From an uncultured Pseudomonadota bacterium (GTDB lineage Bacteria > Pseudomonadota > Gammaproteobacteria > Ga0077536), in NCBI GenBank assembly GCA_903825645.1, contig CAIKBL010000034.1, positions 1 through 43,132 of the forward strand: a stretch of 43,132 bases of DNA, read 5' to 3'. Positions 19,956 to 32,721 of this stretch are shown here, in pieces (the stretch's first letter is position 1; every line of letters begins with the position of its first letter). Made by a program: the position numbers and the translations under genes. Under the pieces are notes generated by a model, which did no database searches, was not told the DNA's origin, and saw only the letters and a list, made by a program, of their open reading frames with translations.

Positions 19956-20193
19956 GCGGGCACGTCACTGTGCGACATGACCGCGATAGAGGCTCGTTAT
20001 CGCGGGAAGTGTGCGACGGCGTCAACCTTGTAACAGATATCGTTCGCGATGCGGGTGCGGCGCCAAAGCCGCGCGTGTTATTGCGGGGATGCACTCGACA
20101 AGGTACGACCGATTTACGTATTCCTATTCACAGGATCGGAGGAGACCGACGCATGATCACCCGTCTGCGCACCTGTGCGGGCCTGACACGTTG

Positions 20194-20736
20194 ATGTTTG
20201 CGCTCCAAGATCCAGCGCTGCGCCTGGCACTGCTGGGTCATGTGACGAGCGGTATGGGCGCCACCCGCGCGCAAAAGATCGAGGAGTCCGGTGTGTTAGC
20301 CGCTCAACGGCGGGCGTTGCGTCAACTCTCCGCCGCCGAGCTTTGCGAGTTGGCAGCTATGCGCGGGGTGACTATCGACGTGGTGCTGGACAGCGAGAGC
20401 CTCACAAGGGGGCTTCGTGCGCTCCGTGCCGCGCAGACCCAGCGCGCCATCGAAACCTATTTTATTCAGCACGGCGCCTCCACGCGGCTAATCCGGCAAC
20501 TGTTTAAAATTCGACGGAGCGTCACTTTGGCCCGTCGCCGGGAGCTCGCGGCAGCGCGGCCGATGGGTCGCGTGGCGCTGCCCAATCACGCAACGCGCGA
20601 CAAAATTCACCAGGTCTGGCATGCCTTGGGTGCCTCGGCACCGCTTGCTCGTTACTACGCCTTGCACCAGGCGTTCCCACACTGCGCGATTGCGGCATTA
20701 GAGACGGTTATTCGCGAATTCGAGCAAGGCCCCTGA
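20194..20736 (+). CDS. DUF2857-type integrative-element protein
   Basis: A 180-residue soluble protein with RAIETYFIQHGASTRLIRQL followed by FKIRRSVTLARRREL, which recalls the DUF2857 domain of proteins next to replication genes in PFGI-1/SPI-7-type integrative elements. The ATG at 20194 follows a TTG and has no strong ribosome site; upstream frame codons are not convincing. It lies 50 bases before the STY4528-like gene, the usual order in these elements (DUF2857, then STY4528, then TIGR03761). The part around residues 95-120 may be a helix-turn-helix. Biochemical role unknown. Confidence 0.65.
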   Translation: MFALQDPALRLALLGHVTSGMGATRAQKIEESGVLAAQRRALRQLSAAELCELAAMRGVTIDVVLDSESLTRGLRALRAAQTQRAIETYFIQHGASTRLIRQLFKIRRSVTLARRRELAAARPMGRVALPNHATRDKIHQVWHALGASAPLARYYALHQAFPHCAIAALETVIREFEQGP

Positions 20737-20786
20737 GGGACATCCGTGCGTATCGTCCCCCCCATCTTGAACACAGGAGGATCTGG

Positions 20787-22133
20787 ATGACTGAGGATCG
20801 CGTAGCTGATTCGCTGGCGACTATCCGGCCGATGCTCGGGCGCCACCTCGCGTTCCATCGGCGTCTGGTCGACGTCACGCAGCATGTGAAAGCGACGCTT
20901 TTACTCTCCCAGTGTCTGTACTGGACGCGGCGTGGCCGGGATCTGGCCGGCGCGGGCGGTTGGTTCTACAAAACTGCCGCACAATGGACGCTGGAAACGG
21001 GGCTTTCGCTGAAAGAGCAGGCGGCAGCGCGCGACTGTCTGCGCGCGCGCGGGCTCCTGGACGAGCGACGGGCCGGGATCCCGGCTCGTCTGTATTTTCG
21101 GGTAAATCTGGCCGGGCTGCACGCCCGGCTGGCGCGTGCGCCACAGGCGTTAGGGACCGGGCGTGCCGCACTCGACGCCGTATTGGCCTTGCTCGGACCA
21201 CCGGTGGCCTATTACCGGGGCCTGTGCGACATCGCGGGTGGCGTGCATCCCGGTCTGTTGCTGTCCGCGGCCGTGCAGCGGAGTCACAGCCGGATGCCGC
21301 CAGACGGGGCCGGCTGGCTGCCCAATTCAGCCGCGCACTGGCACGGCACACTGGGTTTTAGCCGACGGGAACAGGAAACGGCACGCCGGCGTCTGATGGC
21401 ACTGGGCTTCTGGGAGGAGCGCCTGCAGGGCGTGCCGGCGCGTCTCATCGGTCGGATCCGGCCCACACAGATCGCGCTGCAATTGCGGCATGCCAGCGCC
21501 GGCGCGCGACGCGCGCCGGCGCCTGGTGCTGCGCACCCTGACACCGTGGCCGCGTCGGGCGATGTCGAGGCGCACGATCCCGGCGCGTCTGGTCGTCCAG
21601 ATAGGGTCCAGCCTGGCTGGTCCGATCCGCCCATCTGGGGTTGCGCCAAGCGCCAAACTTCTTATAACAATATTACAGCTAAGACATTACCACTACTGCG
21701 TCATGGCCTAACGCCGCACCAGATTAGTCGCTCTGTTGAGGGGGACGGGTTGATTTTTCCTGCCCAACTTCTGCCTCAAGAGCAAGTGGCCATTCTGCAA
21801 TGGCTCCCTGTCTGTCGCGAGCAGGCCCAGTGTCTGCTGGACGAGTTGGCCGGACGCCTCAGGATGACCAACGGCTGCCGCAGTCCGGTCGCTTATCTGC
21901 GTGGACTCGCGCATCGTGCAGCGGCGGGGCGTTTCCATCCCGAACTTGCGCCGCGCATTGCCGCCGAGCGGCATCGGCGCGCGCAGGACGCAGCGCTGCA
22001 AATCACACGACATCGCGACGTCCACCCGCCCGCGGTGGCCGGCTCCGCGGCGAGCAAGGTCGCCCACCGCGAAAAACTCAGTCAACTGCGCGAGCGCTTG
22101 ATGCGTTGTGTCGGCGTGCCCGGTCAGCCCTGA
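20787..22133 (+). CDS. STY4528-like pathogenicity-island replication protein
   Basis: A 448-residue protein with two winged-helix-like repeats in its first half: VKATLLLSQCLYWTRRGRD, WFYKTAAQWTLETGLSLKEQ, then AARDCLRARGLLDERR, and the parallel ...WLPNSAAHWHGTLGFSRREQ. These are hallmarks of the STY4528 family, assumed to act in replication or partition of integrative conjugative elements. A low-complexity linker (residues ~230-280) leads to a C-terminal domain with LDELAGRLRMTN and SPVAYLRGLAHRAAAGRFHP. ATG 20787 has ACAGGAGGATCTGG before it, a very strong ribosome site. It is followed by the TIGR03761-like gene. Confidence 0.75.
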   Translation: MTEDRVADSLATIRPMLGRHLAFHRRLVDVTQHVKATLLLSQCLYWTRRGRDLAGAGGWFYKTAAQWTLETGLSLKEQAAARDCLRARGLLDERRAGIPARLYFRVNLAGLHARLARAPQALGTGRAALDAVLALLGPPVAYYRGLCDIAGGVHPGLLLSAAVQRSHSRMPPDGAGWLPNSAAHWHGTLGFSRREQETARRRLMALGFWEERLQGVPARLIGRIRPTQIALQLRHASAGARRAPAPGAAHPDTVAASGDVEAHDPGASGRPDRVQPGWSDPPIWGCAKRQTSYNNITAKTLPLLRHGLTPHQISRSVEGDGLIFPAQLLPQEQVAILQWLPVCREQAQCLLDELAGRLRMTNGCRSPVAYLRGLAHRAAAGRFHPELAPRIAAERHRRAQDAALQITRHRDVHPPAVAGSAASKVAHREKLSQLRERLMRCVGVPGQP

Positions 22134-22181
22134 GCCCCGTGCGGCATTTTTTGCTTTACTGCCAACCCTACCGGAGGACGT

Positions 22182-23012
22182 ATGCCAAACACCGAACTTT
22201 CAAGCCCCGCGTTACCGCCCCGTAGTCAACTCACCGAAGACACCGGCGATGTCATGGTCCTCCACACCCAGGATGCCTACCGACTGTTTACCGGCCAGTC
22301 GGGAGATCTCGACGCTGGGGTGCCCGCGATTTCGGGGGGGCGTCGCTTCGCCGCGGTGATGAAGTCGATTTGGTATCTCTCCGCGAATGACAATCCCTAT
22401 GCGGATTGGATCCTCCTTCGAGCCTATCAGACGTTGCTGGAGATCCGTACACAGATGGCCGCCGCCGTCGCCGCACGTGAAGCGGAGCTTGCGTTGTTAC
22501 GCGACAAAGGCTTGCGACTATCTGTGCTCAGTGCGCAGCGTCCTGCGATCGTGTCGCTGGATTTTCGGAGTCCCTATGGTTATGCGACGGCAGAGGCGAT
22601 TGTCGAGTTCGATCACTACGTGCGCTTGGTCAGGACGCTGGTGGGCAAAGATCGGGTGAGCGATGTAGAGGGCCGTGCGGCTATCCGCACGACTGGACGT
22701 CGCTTGCGCAGGCTGTTCCTGGAGCCGGTCCGCTGGGAGCGCCATCTGCGCAGTGAGGCCTTGCGGTCGCTGAGCCGACACGATTTTCTACCAGAGGCAG
22801 ACGCCGCAGAAAAGCAGCGTGTCCGCGCGGCGGTGGCACTTTTCGGTGAGGTGCCAAGCGCGGTGTTGCGCGGGTCTGAAGCGCCGCGCCACTCACAACG
22901 TCGTGCTGCCGCCACGTGGCCGCTGCCGCTACGTCTGCCTGACGTACGGGGAGCGACCAGCGCGGATGGCGATTTGGCGGCGGGATCGCGCGCGGCCCTG
23001 TCGATGGGGTAG
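22182..23012 (+). CDS. TIGR03761-like integrative conjugative element protein
   Basis: A 276-residue protein with VMVLHTQDAYRLFTGQ, IWYLSANDNPYADWILLRAY and FRSPYGYATAEAIVEFDHYV, which match the PFL_4669/TIGR03761 family found in PFGI-1-like elements. ATG 22182 follows ACCGGAGGACGT. The normal neighbours downstream in such elements (DUF3158, single-strand binding protein, topoisomerase) are absent; a 250-base gap leads directly to DUF3577. The last ~40 residues are weakly conserved and may be altered by a deletion that removed those neighbours. Molecular role unknown. Confidence 0.75.
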   Translation: MPNTELSSPALPPRSQLTEDTGDVMVLHTQDAYRLFTGQSGDLDAGVPAISGGRRFAAVMKSIWYLSANDNPYADWILLRAYQTLLEIRTQMAAAVAAREAELALLRDKGLRLSVLSAQRPAIVSLDFRSPYGYATAEAIVEFDHYVRLVRTLVGKDRVSDVEGRAAIRTTGRRLRRLFLEPVRWERHLRSEALRSLSRHDFLPEADAAEKQRVRAAVALFGEVPSAVLRGSEAPRHSQRRAAATWPLPLRLPDVRGATSADGDLAAGSRAALSMG

Positions 23013-23190
23013 ATCCCCCCAAGGTCCTGCCGGACAAGTCGCTTTTATGGGAGGTGAAAGCGGGAGAGATTTCGCGTTTTTCGCTGGCTGTGTCAGCCCG
23101 ATCGATGCACGTCACGCATCGCCCCAAACCGGTCAAATTTCCTGCAAGCCGGAGACCGCAAGGTCTGGAGATAGTGTCCGTTGTTTAAAC

Positions 23191-23225
23191 CCACTCGGGG
23201 AGTCTCCTCCCCGTTTAGGGCAGGT
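23191..23225 (+). promoter_or_regulatory. GGGGAG/CTCCCC hairpin upstream of the DUF3577 gene (copy 1 of 3)
   Basis: CGGGGAG (23196-23202) pairs with CTCCCCG (23207-23213) around a 4-base loop, 52 bases before the start codon at 23266. The same core occurs before the next two genes. It may be a leader or attenuator structure. Confidence 0.6.
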
Positions 23226-23265
23226 GATCTCCTCTTCCCTTGTTCAATTTTTACAGGAGATCGTT

Positions 23266-23706
23266 ATGTTCGAGTCAGATCAAGACAATCAGCAGCCGTC
23301 TTTCTTCAACCTGCAGGTTGACGGTATCGGCTATCTCAATCGCGTGCGGACCATCCACGCGCAGAAGGGACAGGCGTTCATGGCCTGCACCGTCTCAGCG
23401 CTGCGCGGGATGGGCAGTGAGGTTGGTTATACGAAGTTCGATTGCCGTGTCAGCGGTGAGGATGCGCAGTTGATAATCAGTCGTCTGGAAGGCGATATCG
23501 CGGCCGACAAGGCCGTGCTTATCGGGTTTCGGATCGTGGATATTTATCCCGAGCTATTTACCTTCGAGAAAGGGGATAAAAAGGGTCAGCCCGGGATCAG
23601 TATCAAAGGACGTTTGCTACGCATCAAGTTTGCCAAGGTCAATGGTGAGCCCATCGCACTGCCACCGCCGGTGTGGCTGCGCGAGCGCGATATCAATCCG
23701 TTCTAG
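23266..23706 (+). CDS. DUF3577 / STY4534-type integrative-element protein
   Basis: A 146-residue soluble protein with [20 protein letters not shown] followed by [20 protein letters not shown], and [20 protein letters not shown]. This is the conserved core of DUF3577, a single-strand-binding-like (OB-fold-like) protein that travels with integrative conjugative elements. ATG 23266 is preceded by CAGGAGATCGTT, which fixes the start. The gene sits between two hairpins of the repeated GGGGAG type. It probably binds DNA during element replication or transfer; this is inferred from family context. Confidence 0.8.
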
Positions 23707-23732
23707 GCGCACGCCCACCGTTCTTACGTTAA

Positions 23733-23760
23733 CCCCCGGGGAGTCACTTCTCCCCGGGGG
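23733..23760 (+). promoter_or_regulatory. GGGGAG/CTCCCC hairpin upstream of the RadC-like gene (copy 2 of 3)
   Basis: CCCCCGGGGAG (23733-23743) pairs perfectly with CTCCCCGGGGG (23750-23760) around a 6-base loop. It is the strongest of the three. It lies 26 bases after the DUF3577 stop and 34 bases before the RadC start, so it could end one transcript and lead the next. Confidence 0.65.
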
Positions 23761-23794
23761 GAAAGGGCTCCCCTGCTGTGTAGAGGAGCCTGTC

Positions 23795-24388
23795 ATGAGT
23801 CAGAAAATAGAATCGATGTCGGATGTCGATGTGCTCGGTTTGCTGGTCGGTAGCCGGCATGCCGGCCATCTCTTGCGGGATATGCGCGGTAGCCTGTCCC
23901 GATTGCTGCATGATCCGTTGCCGGCCGCCTACGCTTCCCCCTTAATTGCGGCGAAGCTGCAGGCGGCCAGAGAGTTGGTGCGCCGCGCGCTCACCGAGGC
24001 GATGGCACAGCGCGAAGTGCTGAGCTGTCCGGAAGTCGTGCGGGCGTTTCTGCAGCTTACGCTGGCCAGCAACGACCACGAAATCTTCCTGGCGCTTTTC
24101 CTCGATGCGCAGAGCCGACTGATCGCGACCGAAGCGCTGTTTCGCGGCACCCTGGCTCAGACCAGCGTGTATCCGCGGGAAGTGGTCAAACGCACGTTGG
24201 TGCATAACGCGGCCTCCGTCATTTTTGCACACAACCATCCGTCCGGCGTCGGCGAGCCCAGCCGGGCTGATGAGTTGATGACGCGGACCTTGCGTGAGGC
24301 GTTGGCGCTGATTGATGTCCAGGTACTCGATCACTTTATCGTCGCCGGCAACGAGGTGGTGTCGTTTGCCGAGCGCGGTTTGTTGTAG
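23795..24388 (+). CDS. RadC-like JAB-domain protein
   Basis: A 197-residue protein. The C-terminal half carries the RadC/JAMM metal motif [20 protein letters not shown], with two His, a Ser and an Asp in the expected spacing (HxHPSGxxxxSxxD). The supporting Glu lies upstream in [10 protein letters not shown]. The N-terminal ~75 residues look like the usual helical RadC lead domain. ATG 23795 follows AGAGGAGCCTGTC. RadC-like proteins are common on integrative elements, and their role, possibly in DNA repair or regulation, is unsettled. It is flanked by a repeated hairpin upstream and a long terminator-like hairpin downstream. Confidence 0.85.
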
Positions 24389-24397
24389 TCGTTCACG

Positions 24398-24430
24398 GCG
24401 GCAGATGAGGGGTCCCCCCGCATCTGCCGC
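24398..24430 (+). terminator. Long hairpin after the RadC-like gene
   Basis: GCGGCAGATG (24398-24407) pairs with CATCTGCCGC (24421-24430), ten perfect pairs, with GGGG/CCCC extending the stem inward. It begins ten bases after the stop codon. No T-run follows. Confidence 0.5.
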
Positions 24431-24499
24431 CCACGTTTCCGGCGCGGCCTGCGCCGCGTCATCCATCCGGTCCCGAAATGCTTCGGTCCGGTTTTTTTA

Positions 24500-24530
24500 C
24501 CCTGCGGGGAGGTGCCTCCCCGTGTTGGGG
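24500..24530 (+). promoter_or_regulatory. GGGGAG/CTCCCC hairpin upstream of the DUF932 gene (copy 3 of 3)
   Basis: CGGGGAGG (24505-24512) faces CCTCCCCG (24515-24522), 45 bases before the start at 24568. It shares the CGGGGAG-N-CTCCCCG core with the hairpins at 23196 and 23733. Confidence 0.6.
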
Positions 24531-24567
24531 AGCGCTGTCTTCCGCTTTTATCGTGAGGAAAATTTCC

Positions 24568-25644
24568 ATGAAAAACGGACGTTCCCTGGTTGATCTGGCC
24601 CACGAGCTTGAGCGTCAAGTTGCGGTCAGACAAGATCTGATCGTGCCCTCGTCGCTGCTGCGATGTCGTACCAACGAACTGGGCAATCTACAGTTGCATG
24701 TCGGCGCCGGCGGCCACGCCGGTCACGGCGTGGAAGGTTACGGCGTCAACGGTCTCGCGCGGCGGCAACTCGCTGAGAAGCTGAAGATTCCATTCACTTA
24801 CTTCGAGCGTATGCGGCGTACACAGCCGACGCTGCTCGATCGCAACCTCAACACCTGGCTACAGGTCGAAGAGGAGCGCCGGATGCTCCGTATCCTGGAT
24901 GGTGAGGTGAGGGCGGTGCTGTCAGACCGTTATCGACGACTGGATAATTTCGAGCTAGCACAGAGCGTGCTACCCCTCCTGTCGCGACTGGAAGGTGCCT
25001 GCTTCGAATCGGTGGAACTCACCGAGACGAAGCTGTATCTGAAAGTCATCACGCCGCGTCTAGCCTACGAAGTAGCCCCGGGCGACATCGTGCAAGCCGG
25101 GATCGTGATTACCAACTCGGAGGTCGGTTGCGGCACCCTGTCGGTGCAGCCACTCCTTTACCGGTTGGTGTGCAGGAATGGGCTTATCGCCTCGGATGGC
25201 GCCTTGCGCAAAACGCATGTTGGTCGTGCTTTACAGTCGGGTGAGACGTCAAACATCGTCTTCCGGGATGACACCCTGATGGCGGACGATCGTGCCTTCT
25301 TCCTGAAGGTGCGCGATGTGGTTGAGGCTGCCGTGTCGGAACCTGTATTTCGGCAAATTGCGTCGAAATTGCGGAAAACACGCGACATCCCCTTGTCTGG
25401 CGATCCGACGAAGACGGTCGAAGTGTTGGCTAGCCGCTACACGCTCAACGATACTGAGCGGGTCGGGGTCTTGCGGCATCTCATCGTCGCAGGTGATCTG
25501 TCGGGTTACGGTTTAGTTAACGCCGTCACCCATTACTCGCAGGATGTTGAGGACTACGATCGGGCGACCGAGTTAGAGGCGCTGGGCGGGAAGCTCATCG
25601 ATCTCGGACCCGGTGATTGGAAAGCGTTGTCACACGCGGCCTGA
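24568..25644 (+). CDS. DUF932 family integrative-element protein
   Basis: A 358-residue protein with VNGLARRQLAEKLKIPFTYF, NLNTWLQVEEERRMLRILDG, then EVRAVLSDRYRRLDN and SEVGCGTLSVQPLLYRLVCR. These are hallmarks of DUF932, a phage/plasmid/ICE-associated family of unknown function. ATG 24568 follows GTGAGGAAAATTTCC. The ATG is preferred because family homology begins shortly after it. It is the last gene of the element block and is followed after 23 bases by a strong intrinsic terminator. No cellular role can be assigned from sequence. Confidence 0.8.
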   Translation: MKNGRSLVDLAHELERQVAVRQDLIVPSSLLRCRTNELGNLQLHVGAGGHAGHGVEGYGVNGLARRQLAEKLKIPFTYFERMRRTQPTLLDRNLNTWLQVEEERRMLRILDGEVRAVLSDRYRRLDNFELAQSVLPLLSRLEGACFESVELTETKLYLKVITPRLAYEVAPGDIVQAGIVITNSEVGCGTLSVQPLLYRLVCRNGLIASDGALRKTHVGRALQSGETSNIVFRDDTLMADDRAFFLKVRDVVEAAVSEPVFRQIASKLRKTRDIPLSGDPTKTVEVLASRYTLNDTERVGVLRHLIVAGDLSGYGLVNAVTHYSQDVEDYDRATELEALGGKLIDLGPGDWKALSHAA

Positions 25645-28011: not shown

Positions 28012-28824
28012 TTGTACAGTTTCCTTTTTCGACCTGGCCCGCCGCGGCGCGCGAGCGACAGTGGGCAGGCGCATGTGGAGGCGCGCTGGATTGCAAGAAC
28101 CGAGCACGCGCCGGCTACTTAAGACGATCCGATCAGGAACCGCAAAAACATTCGGCTTGAAAGGGTGACGACGGGGGCCAAAGCCCACGCGGACCGATGC
28201 TGATGGGCTGGCTGCGATTCGGACTGATCCAGAAGCGTCGCCTTTCAGTGACGAAGGGCATCGCAAGGTTCGCGCACGGTTGCGTATCCTAAAGGACATT
28301 TTTCAGCCTGCGATGCCCGCCCCAGGATCCCGATCAATCTGCGTGTCCGGGGGGCATGATCGGCGATCGCGACGCTGGCGTAAAGCCCATCGCCGCCGCT
28401 ACCTTGGTCATGATGTGTGCCTGCTTATGGGCAATAGTCAGGTACCGCGACTGCATCGGCACCAACGTCGCGGGACAATACAAGTCTGCTGATAGCCATT
28501 TCCGCCCTCGATCGACAGGGCACAATAATCGCCAGCGACAGACTAGTATCCACGGCGTGGCCTGCGGGCATCGATGCCTGCTGCGGGCGACGCGCACAGC
28601 CAGGATTGTCCACGGCTGCGCTGTATTGGCTTGTGCCGCGCAAGGCACGCGACGTGCGGGCGGAAATGCCGCCTAATCGAGAGGCGTGGGCTATTCAGCC
28701 AGGTTCCGTGCGCCACGCCGTCGAACGCCGCGCGCTTAACCCTGGGTTTGGCCGTGTGCTCGGCGCCTGTTGACAGCGGGACACCGTGTCTGCATCCCCG
28801 CCCTGAGGTTCATGCTTAACGGTA
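28012..28824. other. Intergenic, no gene recognised
   Basis: About 810 bases between the divergently oriented binding-protein and VOC-protein genes. No frame has recognisable protein character on either strand, and I see no repeats or RNA. Regulatory sites for the binding-protein gene should lie within the first ~150 bases. Confidence 0.4.
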
Positions 28825-28853
28825 TTGTCATCACGATAGCTCTATACTTGATA
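28825..28853 (+). promoter_or_regulatory. Possible sigma-70 promoter of the VOC-protein gene
   Basis: TTGTCA (28825-28830) is followed after 17 bases by TTGATA (28848-28853), and a better -10 match, TATACT, lies at 28843-28848 with shorter spacing. Both are 45-55 bases before the start codon. By-eye call only. Confidence 0.3.
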
Positions 28854-28898
28854 CGTTACACCGAACCCCACAACCACCACACTAAAAAGGGCTAACAG

Positions 28899-29273
28899 AT
28901 GATTGCTTATGCGACACTCGGCACGAATGATTTAGAACGGTCTGGAAAATTTTACGACGCGCTGCTCGGCGAAATCGGTGCCAGTCGCGGGATGGACAAC
29001 GCGCGCGTCATTCTTTGGGCAACCGGGGCAGGTCAGCCCATGCTCGGCGTGATTAAGCCGATCGATGAAAAGCCCGCCACGGTAGGCAACGGCTCCATGA
29101 TTTCCCTCGGGGCGGAAAATCCTGCGGCGGTCGACAGGCTCTATGCCAAGGCCATCGCGCTGGGTGCAACCGACGAGGGCAAGCCAGGCCCGCGTGGTGA
29201 CGGCGCCTTCTACGTGGGTTATTTTCGTGATCTGGACGGCAATAAGCTGAATTTCTTCTGCATGAACGCCTGA
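28899..29273 (+). CDS. VOC-family (glyoxalase/bleomycin resistance-like) protein
   Basis: A 124-residue single-domain protein of the vicinal-oxygen-chelate fold: IAYATLGTNDLERSGKFYDA at the start, LGATDEGKPGPRG in the middle, and YFRDLDGNKLNFFCMNA at the end. These are typical of the glyoxalase-like group that works as a dimer. The usual metal ligands at the first strand (His) and the last strand (Glu) are replaced (YATLG, LNFFC), so it may be a metal-free binding or isomerase variant. It starts at ATG 28899 with AAAGGG nearby. It is monocistronic, with a hairpin after the stop. Function unspecified; detoxification or a pathway isomerase are options. Confidence 0.8.
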   Translation: MIAYATLGTNDLERSGKFYDALLGEIGASRGMDNARVILWATGAGQPMLGVIKPIDEKPATVGNGSMISLGAENPAAVDRLYAKAIALGATDEGKPGPRGDGAFYVGYFRDLDGNKLNFFCMNA

Positions 29274-29295
29274 TCCGGCACTGACCATCGTACCT

Positions 29296-29328
29296 ACCTG
29301 CCAGTGCCGCTTAGGGGCGCTGGCAGGT
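29296..29328. terminator. Hairpin after the VOC gene
   Basis: ACCTGCCAG (29296-29304) pairs perfectly with CTGGCAGGT (29320-29328), 22 bases after the stop codon. It is near-palindromic and lacks a T-run, so it could serve either strand. Confidence 0.5.
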
Positions 29329-29823
29329 CTCGAATAGGTGTGCCGTCACCCAGCGGAGCGGTGCTGCATGGGTTTTGGTGGGGCGTGCGCTGTTTTACCC
29401 ACTGGATTACAGATCGATGCCGCGTGGGCGCGGCGAGGCGCGCAGACGTTTGCGGTGCGCAGAGCGGCCCTTTTTCGACGACGCGCGGGGAAAACGGAGC
29501 CCCGAAAATCGTCACGTACAAGTCCCCCGCACGCGCCTTCGGCGCTCAGACCAAGGCCACGGCTGCGCAAGCACGGCGTTCTTGAGGCGACGCGACTCGG
29601 CCTCGGGTGCGTCCCGCGCCGCTTACTCCCTGCCCGCGAGGTCCCGACGCCGGGGTGTGAGTCGCCAGGCGTTCTCAAGCGAAACATCCCGCGTAAGCGC
29701 ACGCGTTCGGCCCCCTGCATGGTGCCCCGTCTTTGGTGGCTTGAATGGCCTGTGATTTCCGCGTAGACGGAGACGGTACCCCTGCGTCTGCGACGCGCTT
29801 GGGGTGTCCACCCCAACGCATTG
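29329..29823. other. Non-coding stretch upstream of the nitrile hydratase remnant
   Basis: I searched by eye for a nitrile hydratase alpha subunit (its CxLCSC metal-binding motif) and found none on either strand. No other gene is recognisable. The alpha gene is either lost or decayed beyond recognition. Confidence 0.4.
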
Positions 29824-30439
29824 ATGACGTATGACCGAGGCCGTGTGCCGTTTGCGTGCGACGAGCCGGCATTCCACCACGCATGGGAACGCCGGATGTG
29901 GGGGCTCATGCGGGCAACTACGCCGCCAGCGGGCGCGACGCGCGACAGCTCGCGCCATCGCATCGAAAAAAATCCCGCCTGCGCTTTATCTCGGTTTTAG
30001 TGACTTCGAGCGCTGGCATTACTCTCGGGCTGTGGCCATGTGGTCGAGCGGGGCGGTCACGCGCGCGGCGTTAAAAACCGGACAGGTCGCCGTGGATGCC
30101 CCAGTCAGAACGGACGCGGCTGCCGGGCAGGGGTTAATCCTTACGCTGTGTTTGACTTTCGCCGTGAAGTTGATGGCTCACCTCGCTTTAAGCGCGGTCA
30201 CAAGGGGAGGACGGCGAGCGTTCATCCTGCCGGACATCCGCGCCGGCCACGTGACGCGCGGGCGCGGATCGGCGGGGTGTGTTTACACCCTGGCGCGCAT
30301 GGTCTCGGCGAGTCGCCAAAACCGTTTGTACCCGGTGCGTGGCGCTGCGCAGGCGCTGCGGGGCGCGGAAGCCGCACCCAGGGATGTGATGCATCTGGAC
30401 GTTTGGGGGGAGTGTCATCTTGAATTCGCCGCCCCATAA
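29824..30439 (+). pseudogene. Nitrile hydratase beta subunit, multiply frameshifted
   Basis: Pieces of a nitrile hydratase beta subunit occur in the right order but in different frames. ATG 29824 begins MTYDRGRVPFACDEPAFHHA with WERRMWGL (family: EPxFHxxWExR). A second frame gives IPPALYLGFSDFERWHY (family: IPPAxYLxxSYYExW). The first frame again gives MVERGGHARGV, then SVHPAGHPRRPRDARARIG and HPGAHGLGESPKP (family: HPxGHTRLPRYxRGxxG, GAHxxGExPQP). Finally LYPVR and APRDVMHLDVWGE close the protein at TAA 30439 (family: LYxVRF, VxVDLWE). At least three shifts are needed, so this is a true pseudogene. The alpha subunit, with the metal site, is absent. Confidence 0.75.
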
Positions 30440-30696
30440 GCCGCTGTTTCAGGCGCCATGGCGGGCCGAAGCGTCGGCGACAGCGATGGGCTTGCAAGAG
30501 GCCGGCGTATTCAGCGCCCGCGTCGGGGGATCCCGATGCGGGCGATAGCACCTATCGCCACGTGCTGGATGCACTCGAAATTTTGCTCAGTGCAAAGGGT
30601 CTTCTCGGTGCGCGGGATCGGGCTGTGCGTAAAGCGCAGTGGATTGACGCCTATGAAACAACTGCGCATGGCCAGCCCGTCACCTTGAAAAGCTAA
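30420..30696 (+). pseudogene. Nitrile hydratase accessory (activator) protein, frameshifted
   Basis: A frame beginning near TTG 30420 reads KPLFQAPWRAEASATAMGLQ and EAGVFSA, matching the N-terminus of small nitrile hydratase accessory proteins (family: PxFxxPWxAxAFALAVxLxExGxFxW). It closes at TAG 30548. The neighbouring frame from ~30530 gives DSTYRHVLDALEILLSAKGL, then WIDAYETTAHGQPVTLKS and TAA at 30696, the family's C-terminus (family: AxxATPHGQPIxL). About 15 codons between the halves are gone. It follows the beta-subunit remnant directly, the usual operon order, and precedes the intact amidase by 500 bases. Confidence 0.75.
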
Positions 30697-31197
30697 TCAG
30701 GCAGGCCCAAGCGGACGACAGGATTCGGCCTCTCGCGAGTTGACTCGAAAGCAGACGCGGGACGGCAACGAGGCCGACGACCGGTCCATTCGCCAAGACA
30801 TCACAGCGTCCCGTACCGTGCCTGCCGGCATGGTGATCATCCGCGTGGCCGTCTATTGCTGCCCCACGGAGAGCGCCTGAGACCCGCCCGGCCGGGCTAC
30901 CGCCGTTGCTGCGCCTGGCCATGACGGTGGCCGGCAGCGCGCCCGCGTTAATGAAACGGGCTATCTGAGGTCATCTCCTCCTGCTTGCGATGGACGCGAT
31001 AATGGGCACGCGTGGGTGTGCGCCTCCCCGCGACGAAGCCCCCGCATGGCACAGGCCGGATCATCAACGCGCCGAAGCGCGTGATAAAGGGTGCCTTCCG
31101 GTTGCGCCGCATGTTGCGACGATCCCTCAATCGGCTCTACGATTGTTGGCGTACACGCAAGTCGTTAATCCGACGTCATCACCGAGGAGGCCGTTCC
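30697..31197. other. Gap between accessory-protein remnant and amidase
   Basis: No gene is recognisable in these 500 bases. The final part carries the amidase ribosome site (GAGGAGGCC). The region may contain unrecognisable remains of the old operon. Confidence 0.4.
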
Positions 31198-32721
31198 ATG
31201 ACTGTTCCCACCCTGACCCCAGACCAATTGCTGGATGCCGCCGACCGCGTCGGGTTATCCCTGACCCCGGACGATGTCGATTCCTATCTTGGGCTCCTTG
31301 CGCCCTACATGAATGCCTACAATCTGGTTGATTCGATGCCGGATAATCTGCCGGTCGTGAAGTACCCCCGTACGCCGGGCGTGTTCCCACCCGCGGCGGA
31401 AAACGTACACAACGCCTGGTATGTCAAAACGTCCATCAAGGGTGCCCCGCAAGGGGCGCTGGCAGGCAAGCGCGTCGCCATCAAAGACAACGTCATGGTG
31501 GCCGGGGTGCCGATGATGAACGGCAACGCGATTCTGGAAGGCTATGTACCCGATATCGATGCGACGGTCGTGACGCGCATTTTGGACGCGGGTGGTGAAA
31601 TCGCGGGCAAGACCCACTGCGAAAATTATTGCATTTCGGGCGGCAGCCACACCAACGCAAAAGGGCCTGTTCATAACCCTTACAAGCGGGGGTATTCGTC
31701 CGGCGGCTCCTCTTCAGGCAGCGCGGTTGTGGTGTCGCTCGGTGAGGTCGATATGGCGATCGGTGGCGATCAGGGCGGCTCCATCCGCATGCCCGCTGCG
31801 TGGTGCGGTATCGTCGGCATGAAGGCAACGCACGGGCTAGTCCCTTATTCCGGCATTATGCCGATTGAAATCACGGTCGATCACACCGGGCCGATGACGA
31901 AAAATGTCCGTGACAATGCGCTGTTGCTTGAGGTGATTGCGGGCGTTGATGGATACGATCCGCGCCAGTTCCATGAGCGACAACCCGGTACCCTCGATTA
32001 CACCACCGGGATTGACGGGGGCGTGAAGGGCATGCGGATTGGGATCGTCAAAGAAGGCTTTGGCCATCGGGGCGCGGAGGCCGATGTGGAGGCGTGCGTA
32101 CAGCGCGCCGGGGAGCGTTTCCGCGCGCTGGGCGCGATCGTGGAAGAGATCTCGATCCCCGAACATCTGGTTGGGCCTGCGCTGTGGGTGCCGATTGGCG
32201 CTGAAGGCCTGACGCAGACCATGATGTTGGGCGACGGTTACGGTGCGTCGCGTCGAGACCTTTACGTCACCAGCCTGATCGATAAGTTGCACGGCTGGGA
32301 GCTGCGTGCCGATCAGCTCTCGGAAACGACCAAGCTTTTGACGGTGCTGGGCGTCCACATGCAAAAATATTACGGCACGCGTTTTTACGGCAAGGCGACG
32401 AATATCGCCCGGCGACTGACCGCCGCCTATGACGCCCAATTGGCTCAATACGACGTATTAATGATGCCGACGATGCTCATGAAGGCGACGCCCATTCCGC
32501 CGGCCGATGCGCCACGGGAGCTCTACGTGCGGCGTGCAATGGAGATGATTAGCAACACCTCGCCGTTCGACATCAGTCACCATCCGGCGTTAACGGTGCC
32601 GTGCGGGATGTCCGAAGGTTTGCCGATTGGCATGATGTTGATCGGGCGTCATTTTGATGAGGCGAAGGTTTACCGCGTCGGCTATGCGTTCGAGCAATCG
32701 GGCGACTGGCAAGGGATGTAG
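31198..32721 (+). CDS. Amidase of the nitrile-hydratase-associated type (amidase signature family)
   Basis: A 507-residue amidase signature enzyme with all catalytic residues: Lys96 in VAIKDNV, Ser171 in SSGGSSSGSA (the cis-Ser) and Ser195 in GGDQGGSIRMPAAWCG (the nucleophile). As I recall, this numbering is identical to the enantioselective amidase of Rhodococcus nitrile-degradation operons. The N-terminal ~90 residues form the helical extension of that subgroup (YNLVDSMPDNLP). ATG 31198 follows GAGGAGGCCGTTCC. It hydrolyses amides to carboxylic acid and ammonia in the cytoplasm, the second step after nitrile hydratase. The hydratase genes just upstream are broken, so the amidase must now work on amides from another source. 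Confidence 0.9.
   Translation: MTVPTLTPDQLLDAADRVGLSLTPDDVDSYLGLLAPYMNAYNLVDSMPDNLPVVKYPRTPGVFPPAAENVHNAWYVKTSIKGAPQGALAGKRVAIKDNVMVAGVPMMNGNAILEGYVPDIDATVVTRILDAGGEIAGKTHCENYCISGGSHTNAKGPVHNPYKRGYSSGGSSSGSAVVVSLGEVDMAIGGDQGGSIRMPAAWCGIVGMKATHGLVPYSGIMPIEITVDHTGPMTKNVRDNALLLEVIAGVDGYDPRQFHERQPGTLDYTTGIDGGVKGMRIGIVKEGFGHRGAEADVEACVQRAGERFRALGAIVEEISIPEHLVGPALWVPIGAEGLTQTMMLGDGYGASRRDLYVTSLIDKLHGWELRADQLSETTKLLTVLGVHMQKYYGTRFYGKATNIARRLTAAYDAQLAQYDVLMMPTMLMKATPIPPADAPRELYVRRAMEMISNTSPFDISHHPALTVPCGMSEGLPIGMMLIGRHFDEAKVYRVGYAFEQSGDWQGM

Follow-up and report, generated by a model that had tools for sequence, protein, structure and literature searches.

Probable pseudogenised second nitrile hydratase locus beside an intact amidase in a gammaproteobacterial draft genome with a complete predicted Co-type nitrile hydratase gene set

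The metal site of nitrile hydratase (NHase) lies in the alpha subunit, and nitrile hydration is not expected of beta by itself. Thiocyanate hydrolase is a three-subunit NHase-like enzyme in which beta is split in two. The PDB entries 3a1i and 3a1k and the NCBIfam model NF005565 are taken here to represent the Rhodococcus NHase-linked amidase. The stretch of DNA analysed, referred to below as the window, is contig C34 (43,132 bases) of a draft genome of 4.13 Mb in 90 contigs, which is 99.51% complete with 0.14% contamination by the tool's figures. A small literature search on NHase pseudogenes, three-subunit forms and amidase residues found no published description of this locus. The window contains remnants of NHase beta and accessory genes, in that order and broken in frame, followed by an open amidase gene, and open NHase genes are found on another contig of the genome, C76 (locus L006). 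The features are as follows.

Window, 29839-30091, + strand: remnant of the N-terminal half of NHase beta (betaN), with one frame switch near 29970, from frameshift-tolerant profile alignment
Window, 30160-30406, + strand: remnant of the C-terminal half of NHase beta (betaC), with one frame switch near 30326, from frameshift-tolerant profile alignment
Window, 30441-30669, + strand: remnant of the NHase accessory (activator) protein, with one frame switch near 30520, from frameshift-tolerant profile alignment
Window, 31198-32721, + strand: intact amidase of the amidase-signature family, 507 aa, from PF01425, NF005565 and catalytic residues
C76, 6525-7127: NHase alpha, open
C76, 7139-7450: NHase beta N-half, open
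C76, 7450-7797: NHase beta C-half, open
C76, 7770-8174: NHase accessory protein, open

We consider it very probable that the window locus is a pseudogenised, redundant second NHase locus in a genome that keeps a complete Co-type NHase on C76 and an intact amidase.

The remnant alignments were fitted to profiles built from NHase genes of related genomes together with those of C76. Compared with 40 first-order Markov shuffles of 28300-31197, the betaC remnant scored 177 (shuffle mean 40.5, maximum 51.8) and the accessory remnant 131 (mean 37.0, maximum 48.1). The betaN profile set contains accessory proteins too, and its best match in the whole of 28300-31197 is the homologous accessory gene (99.1); a run restricted to part of the region scored 81.8 at 29839-30091. 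For this profile the shuffles of 28300-31197 reached 44.9 at most. In an in-window control of 56 tile-strands (bases 1-42500, both strands), the top scores outside the remnant tiles were 43.6 for betaN, 48.6 for betaC and 44.9 for the accessory protein. The preliminary description, which had read beta and accessory pieces in order but in several frames, is borne out: the scores exceed those of the shuffles and of the rest of the window, and the matches of a frameshift-aware search against the two families tile in order over 29839-30669. The frame path is f0-f1-f0-f1 through beta, so that three switches are required to read it and no open beta is present at the locus as assembled, and f2-f0, with one switch, through the accessory gene.

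Six-frame Pfam searches gave PF21006 at 29833-29970 (E 9.8e-5, above the curated cut-off), PF21006 at 29960-30100 (E 0.018, below it) and PF02211 at 30160-30303 (E 1.5e-4, below its cut-off). Sub-cut-off matches also occur in control genomes, for PF02211 in 9 of 14 (E<=10) and for PF21006 in 2 of 14 (E<=1), and the Pfam matches by themselves are therefore weak. Automatic annotation would miss the remnants according to the preliminary description, a prediction to which one piece may be an exception, as it exceeds its Pfam cut-off in the six-frame search. Further matches were obtained by tblastn with the C76 betaN protein (29803-29970, E 6e-8), by tblastn for betaC (two pieces, E 2e-7) and by family HMM for the two accessory pieces (E 2.8e-3 and 1.9e-4). 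The case for an NHase remnant is carried by the order of the pieces and the profile scores rather than by Pfam alone, and this ordered beta and accessory homology above chance is what an NHase pseudogene would present.

No recognisable alpha subunit is present at the window locus, in agreement with the preliminary description; frameshift alignment, the PF02979 search and the family HMM are all without signal there. Over 28300-31197 the best alpha frameshift alignment scored 46.6, lay on the accessory remnant and stayed under the shuffle maximum of 51.2, and the flanks gave 36.7 (28300-29830) and 31.6 (30660-31197). The whole-genome PF02979 search (E<=10) returned no alpha match on C34, and the alpha family HMM, applied to the stop-to-stop frames of 20 aa or more that the window contains, reached E 0.37 at best, away from the locus. 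The top alpha alignment score of the window, 60.1, comes from tiles around 6-9.5 kb (family-HMM E 0.37). An alpha with the metal-binding Cys motif, which a functional NHase requires, was likewise not found at the locus. Upstream, a glyoxalase-like ORF ends at 29273, leaving 565 bases to beta, compared with the 603 bases of the C76 alpha gene. A beta-alpha-accessory order, known from three loci (G012:C106, G019:C265 and G030:C29), was considered for the window and rejected, as beta ends at 30406 and the accessory remnant begins at 30441, with no space for alpha. The alpha gene has been wholly or partly deleted, is unrecognisable, or was never present.

The last of these cases would allow the alpha-less state to predate the decay, with beta lacking alpha beside an amidase forming a working unit. 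Two species of one genus, another genus of the family, offer a parallel: in G019:C133 (L141:2425-4750) an amidase, 56% identical to that of the window, directly precedes an intact NHase beta of full length, alpha being absent there, and in G012:C12 (L142:5496-6546) the same arrangement occurs on a contig that ends inside the amidase. The betaN remnant is 41% and 40% identical to these betas, as close as to any other. Neither is among the six nearest to the betaC remnant, and, unlike in the window, no accessory gene lies within the DNA examined at either locus. We regard such an ancestral unit as improbable.

In C76, the alpha translation scored 301.9 bits with PF02979 and 313.4 bits with TIGR01323 (equivalog cut-off 249.85), and 188.9 bits with the thiocyanate hydrolase gamma model, below the cut-off of 291.45. 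It was filed as NHase because it exceeds the NHase alpha cut-off and falls below that of thiocyanate hydrolase gamma. The accessory protein reached 66.6 bits with TIGR03889 (cut-off 46), and PF02211 matched with E 8.4e-32. Either half of a split gene should by itself fall short of the whole-beta cut-off (152.2), and the beta halves indeed scored 131.6 and 127.2 bits. The two beta ORFs overlap by one base (TAATG); betaN frames are similarly short in several related genomes, and others have a single full-length beta. The alpha translation contains a CTLCSC motif, which we take to mark Co-type NHase, and the nearest PDB chains are Co-type NHase alpha subunits; motif and chains together point to a Co-type enzyme. 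Full-length alpha with CTLCSC, both beta halves and the accessory gene are all open. With C34 and C76 as binned, the genome keeps a complete predicted NHase gene set on C76. Two same-genus operons (L019, L022) have alphas that share 85% and 80% identity with that of C76, which therefore fits the lineage. The GC contents of the window (0.606) and L006 (0.602) are similar, in keeping with a single genome, though this proves little.

These data bear on the conclusion of the preliminary description that the cell had lost nitrile hydration and retained amide hydrolysis only. The lack of a detectable alpha at the window locus beside an intact amidase is what such a loss would leave, but the same genome carries an uninterrupted, complete Co-type NHase operon on C76 whose alpha has same-genus relatives at 80-85% identity, and the conclusion is scarcely credible. 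The most likely reading of the window locus is ordinary decay of genes rather than loss of a pathway.

The case for decay rests on the frame breaks, the missing alpha and a raised GC content at codon position 2. For the latter, the six remnant pieces span 0.50-0.65 and seven intact genes 0.37-0.52 (the amidase, the enoyl-CoA hydratase, the glyoxalase-like gene and the four C76 genes), two ranges that touch, the remnant pieces being short; the increase fits relaxed protein constraint, as expected. The remnant retains 32 of the 46 columns conserved at 90% or more and 19 of the 112 conserved at less than 60%. The lowest conserved-column share among intact homologues is 0.64-0.70 (on 9-23 columns), and since some of these retain equally little, the column count alone is no proof of decay. 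The partial retention of conserved columns could be read, in a draft genome of 90 contigs, as a sign of working genes broken by sequencing or assembly indels. Such errors would have to place four switches in 831 bases while sparing all 1521 bases of the amidase, which has seven orthologues at 79-85% identity, and they would account neither for the missing alpha nor for the raised codon-position-2 GC, which makes an artefact very unlikely.

The remnant is 31% (betaN), 39% (betaC) and 28% (accessory) identical to the C76 genes, which rank 19th of 50, 19th of 30 and 25th of 27, respectively, in identity to it among intact homologues. These values rule out a recent duplicate of C76, and the remnant represents a distinct NHase line rather than a fresh copy. 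Its nearest intact homologues, each at a different locus, are 41% (betaN), 48% (betaC) and 41% (accessory) identical. A closer relationship to single-gene than to split betas was considered and not adopted: full-length betas are the nearest relatives of the betaN remnant, whereas the closest locus for betaC is L068, in which the betaN frame has the short form of a split gene. The read-through beta found matches in 14 of 369 genomes of the class, its own included, the best foreign one being a full-length beta in G012:C22 (36%, E 8e-26). Related genomes were examined for the intact operon: when 36 genomes of the family were searched by DNA with 29280-31190, only 8 first-look candidates being scored for most of them, nothing longer than matches of 29-58 bases was obtained, and decay in place was thus judged without an intact ancestral locus. 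One of these matches, in G033:C91, covers the betaN remnant; the 6 kb stretch that holds it has no NHase matches. Within 30881-30946, short segments of about 29-36 bases are found again, with 89-93% identity, on contig C42 and in G018.

The amidase lies on the same strand as the accessory remnant, with 528 bases between them. Its start is likely the ATG at 31198 rather than that of the longer ORF at 31012. As the preliminary description had stated, it is intact: Lys96, Ser171 and Ser195 are all present in a single open frame, giving the Lys and two Ser of the amidase signature family in a full-length match. It matched PF01425 with E 3e-86 (longer ORF as query) and NF005565 with 757 bits (cut-off 545), and its best PDB sequence matches are 3a1k and 3a1i (query 5-500). 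It can presumably hydrolyse amides. At E<=1e-60, amidase matches occur in 33 of 58 genomes searched, own genome counted, where the window amidase is the sole member of its class. Orthologues at 79-85% identity are found in seven other genomes of the 58, and all remaining matches are at 58% or less.

No NHase gene lies beside these closest amidases in any of the seven fetched loci (L037-L043), which cover at least 2.1 kb upstream each, with downstream coverage as short as 0.25 kb (L038) and 1 kb (L041); the neighbourhood in the window may therefore not be an inherited operon. NHase alpha and beta directly follow the amidase in 11 of the 29 loci L008-L036, whose amidases in these cases are 54-58% identical to that of the window. 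In a scan of named genomes yielding 24 amidase loci, seven of them on contigs already covered, an NHase alpha is present in six. NHase is divergent at a distance of about 5 kb in L122, L125 and L135 (75-79% amidases), with branched-chain-amino-acid-type ABC transporter genes between amidase and NHase in L122 and L135, and is adjacent and divergent in L129, L130 and L136 (59-60% amidases). The order beta-accessory-amidase in one direction, as in the window, occurs in none of 31 loci (seven orthologue and 24 scan loci).

Across the six genomes of the genus, a stand-alone amidase class, with no second match at E<=1e-60, occurs in G000, G001 and G003, and a 55-56% amidase beside NHase in G002, G004 and G005. 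In G001, no amidase (E<=1e-20) is present in 12 kb of DNA surrounding the NHase. G003, at 90% completeness, has no match to PF21006 or PF02979 and is a better candidate than the window for an amidase without NHase. The pattern is not strict, because G008 and G032, of another genus, hold both classes.

The amidase neighbourhoods raise the possibility that remnant and amidase never formed one operon, and that an NHase fragment came to lie beside a stand-alone amidase independently, either brought in or left stranded, perhaps through a mobile element. Besides the seven orthologue loci lacking NHase and the distance of the remnant from the C76 NHase, matches to DUF2857, AcaB, DUF3577 and DUF932 genes at 20011-25644 of the window would agree with this, such genes being presumably typical of integrative conjugative elements. 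Set against it are the shared strand and the 528-base spacing, and the NHase-amidase pairing common among relatives in other arrangements (the 11 of 29 loci above). A separate arrival is less probable than not, though a substantial possibility; it is compatible with pseudogenisation and differs in origin only. Of the decayed operon beside the amidase that was originally proposed, the adjoining decayed NHase locus stands, and membership of the same operon need not follow from it. In a Pfam scan, ten ORFs in 28337-31328 yielded nothing beyond the NHase_beta_C piece, a zinc finger at E 0.08 and a weak match to the small subunit of phage terminase (PF05119, 28337-28648, - strand, E 0.0022, below cut-off), the last possibly another remnant. 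For the enoyl-CoA hydratase downstream, a search of 40 genomes gave no foreign relative exceeding 58%. R. rhodochrous ATCC BAA-870 is reported to carry a Co-type NHase operon on a genomic island, with the cluster located on the plasmid (PMC6941271), and NHase loci on mobile DNA are therefore not new.

Under the preferred reading, that of a pseudogenised second locus at 29839-30669, the DNA would formerly have encoded beta and then directly the accessory protein, as in an alpha-beta-accessory NHase operon, with alpha since deleted or past recognition, and the remnant should now yield no enzyme. Retention of the C76 NHase may have rendered this second locus redundant and free to decay. The amidase would hydrolyse amides, plausibly among them those from the C76 enzyme in a shared pathway. 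More generally, a decayed catabolic locus should not be taken to show the loss of a trait before the remainder of the genome has been searched. If the observation on the two loci of the sister genus holds, the intact alpha-less betas beside amidases in the sister genus may merit attention, since beta alone is not expected to act on nitriles.

Compared with known systems, the window resembles a Co-type NHase operon in having betaN, betaC and accessory sequences in that order; it differs in lacking alpha and in its several frame breaks, and should make no enzyme. The C76 NHase resembles thiocyanate hydrolase in that beta is encoded as two ORFs, whereas its alpha sets it apart, with 313.4 bits to NHase alpha and 188.9 bits to the gamma subunit. 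The window amidase is a near full-length match to 3a1i/3a1k and NF005565 without notable difference, and is an ordinary member of that group.
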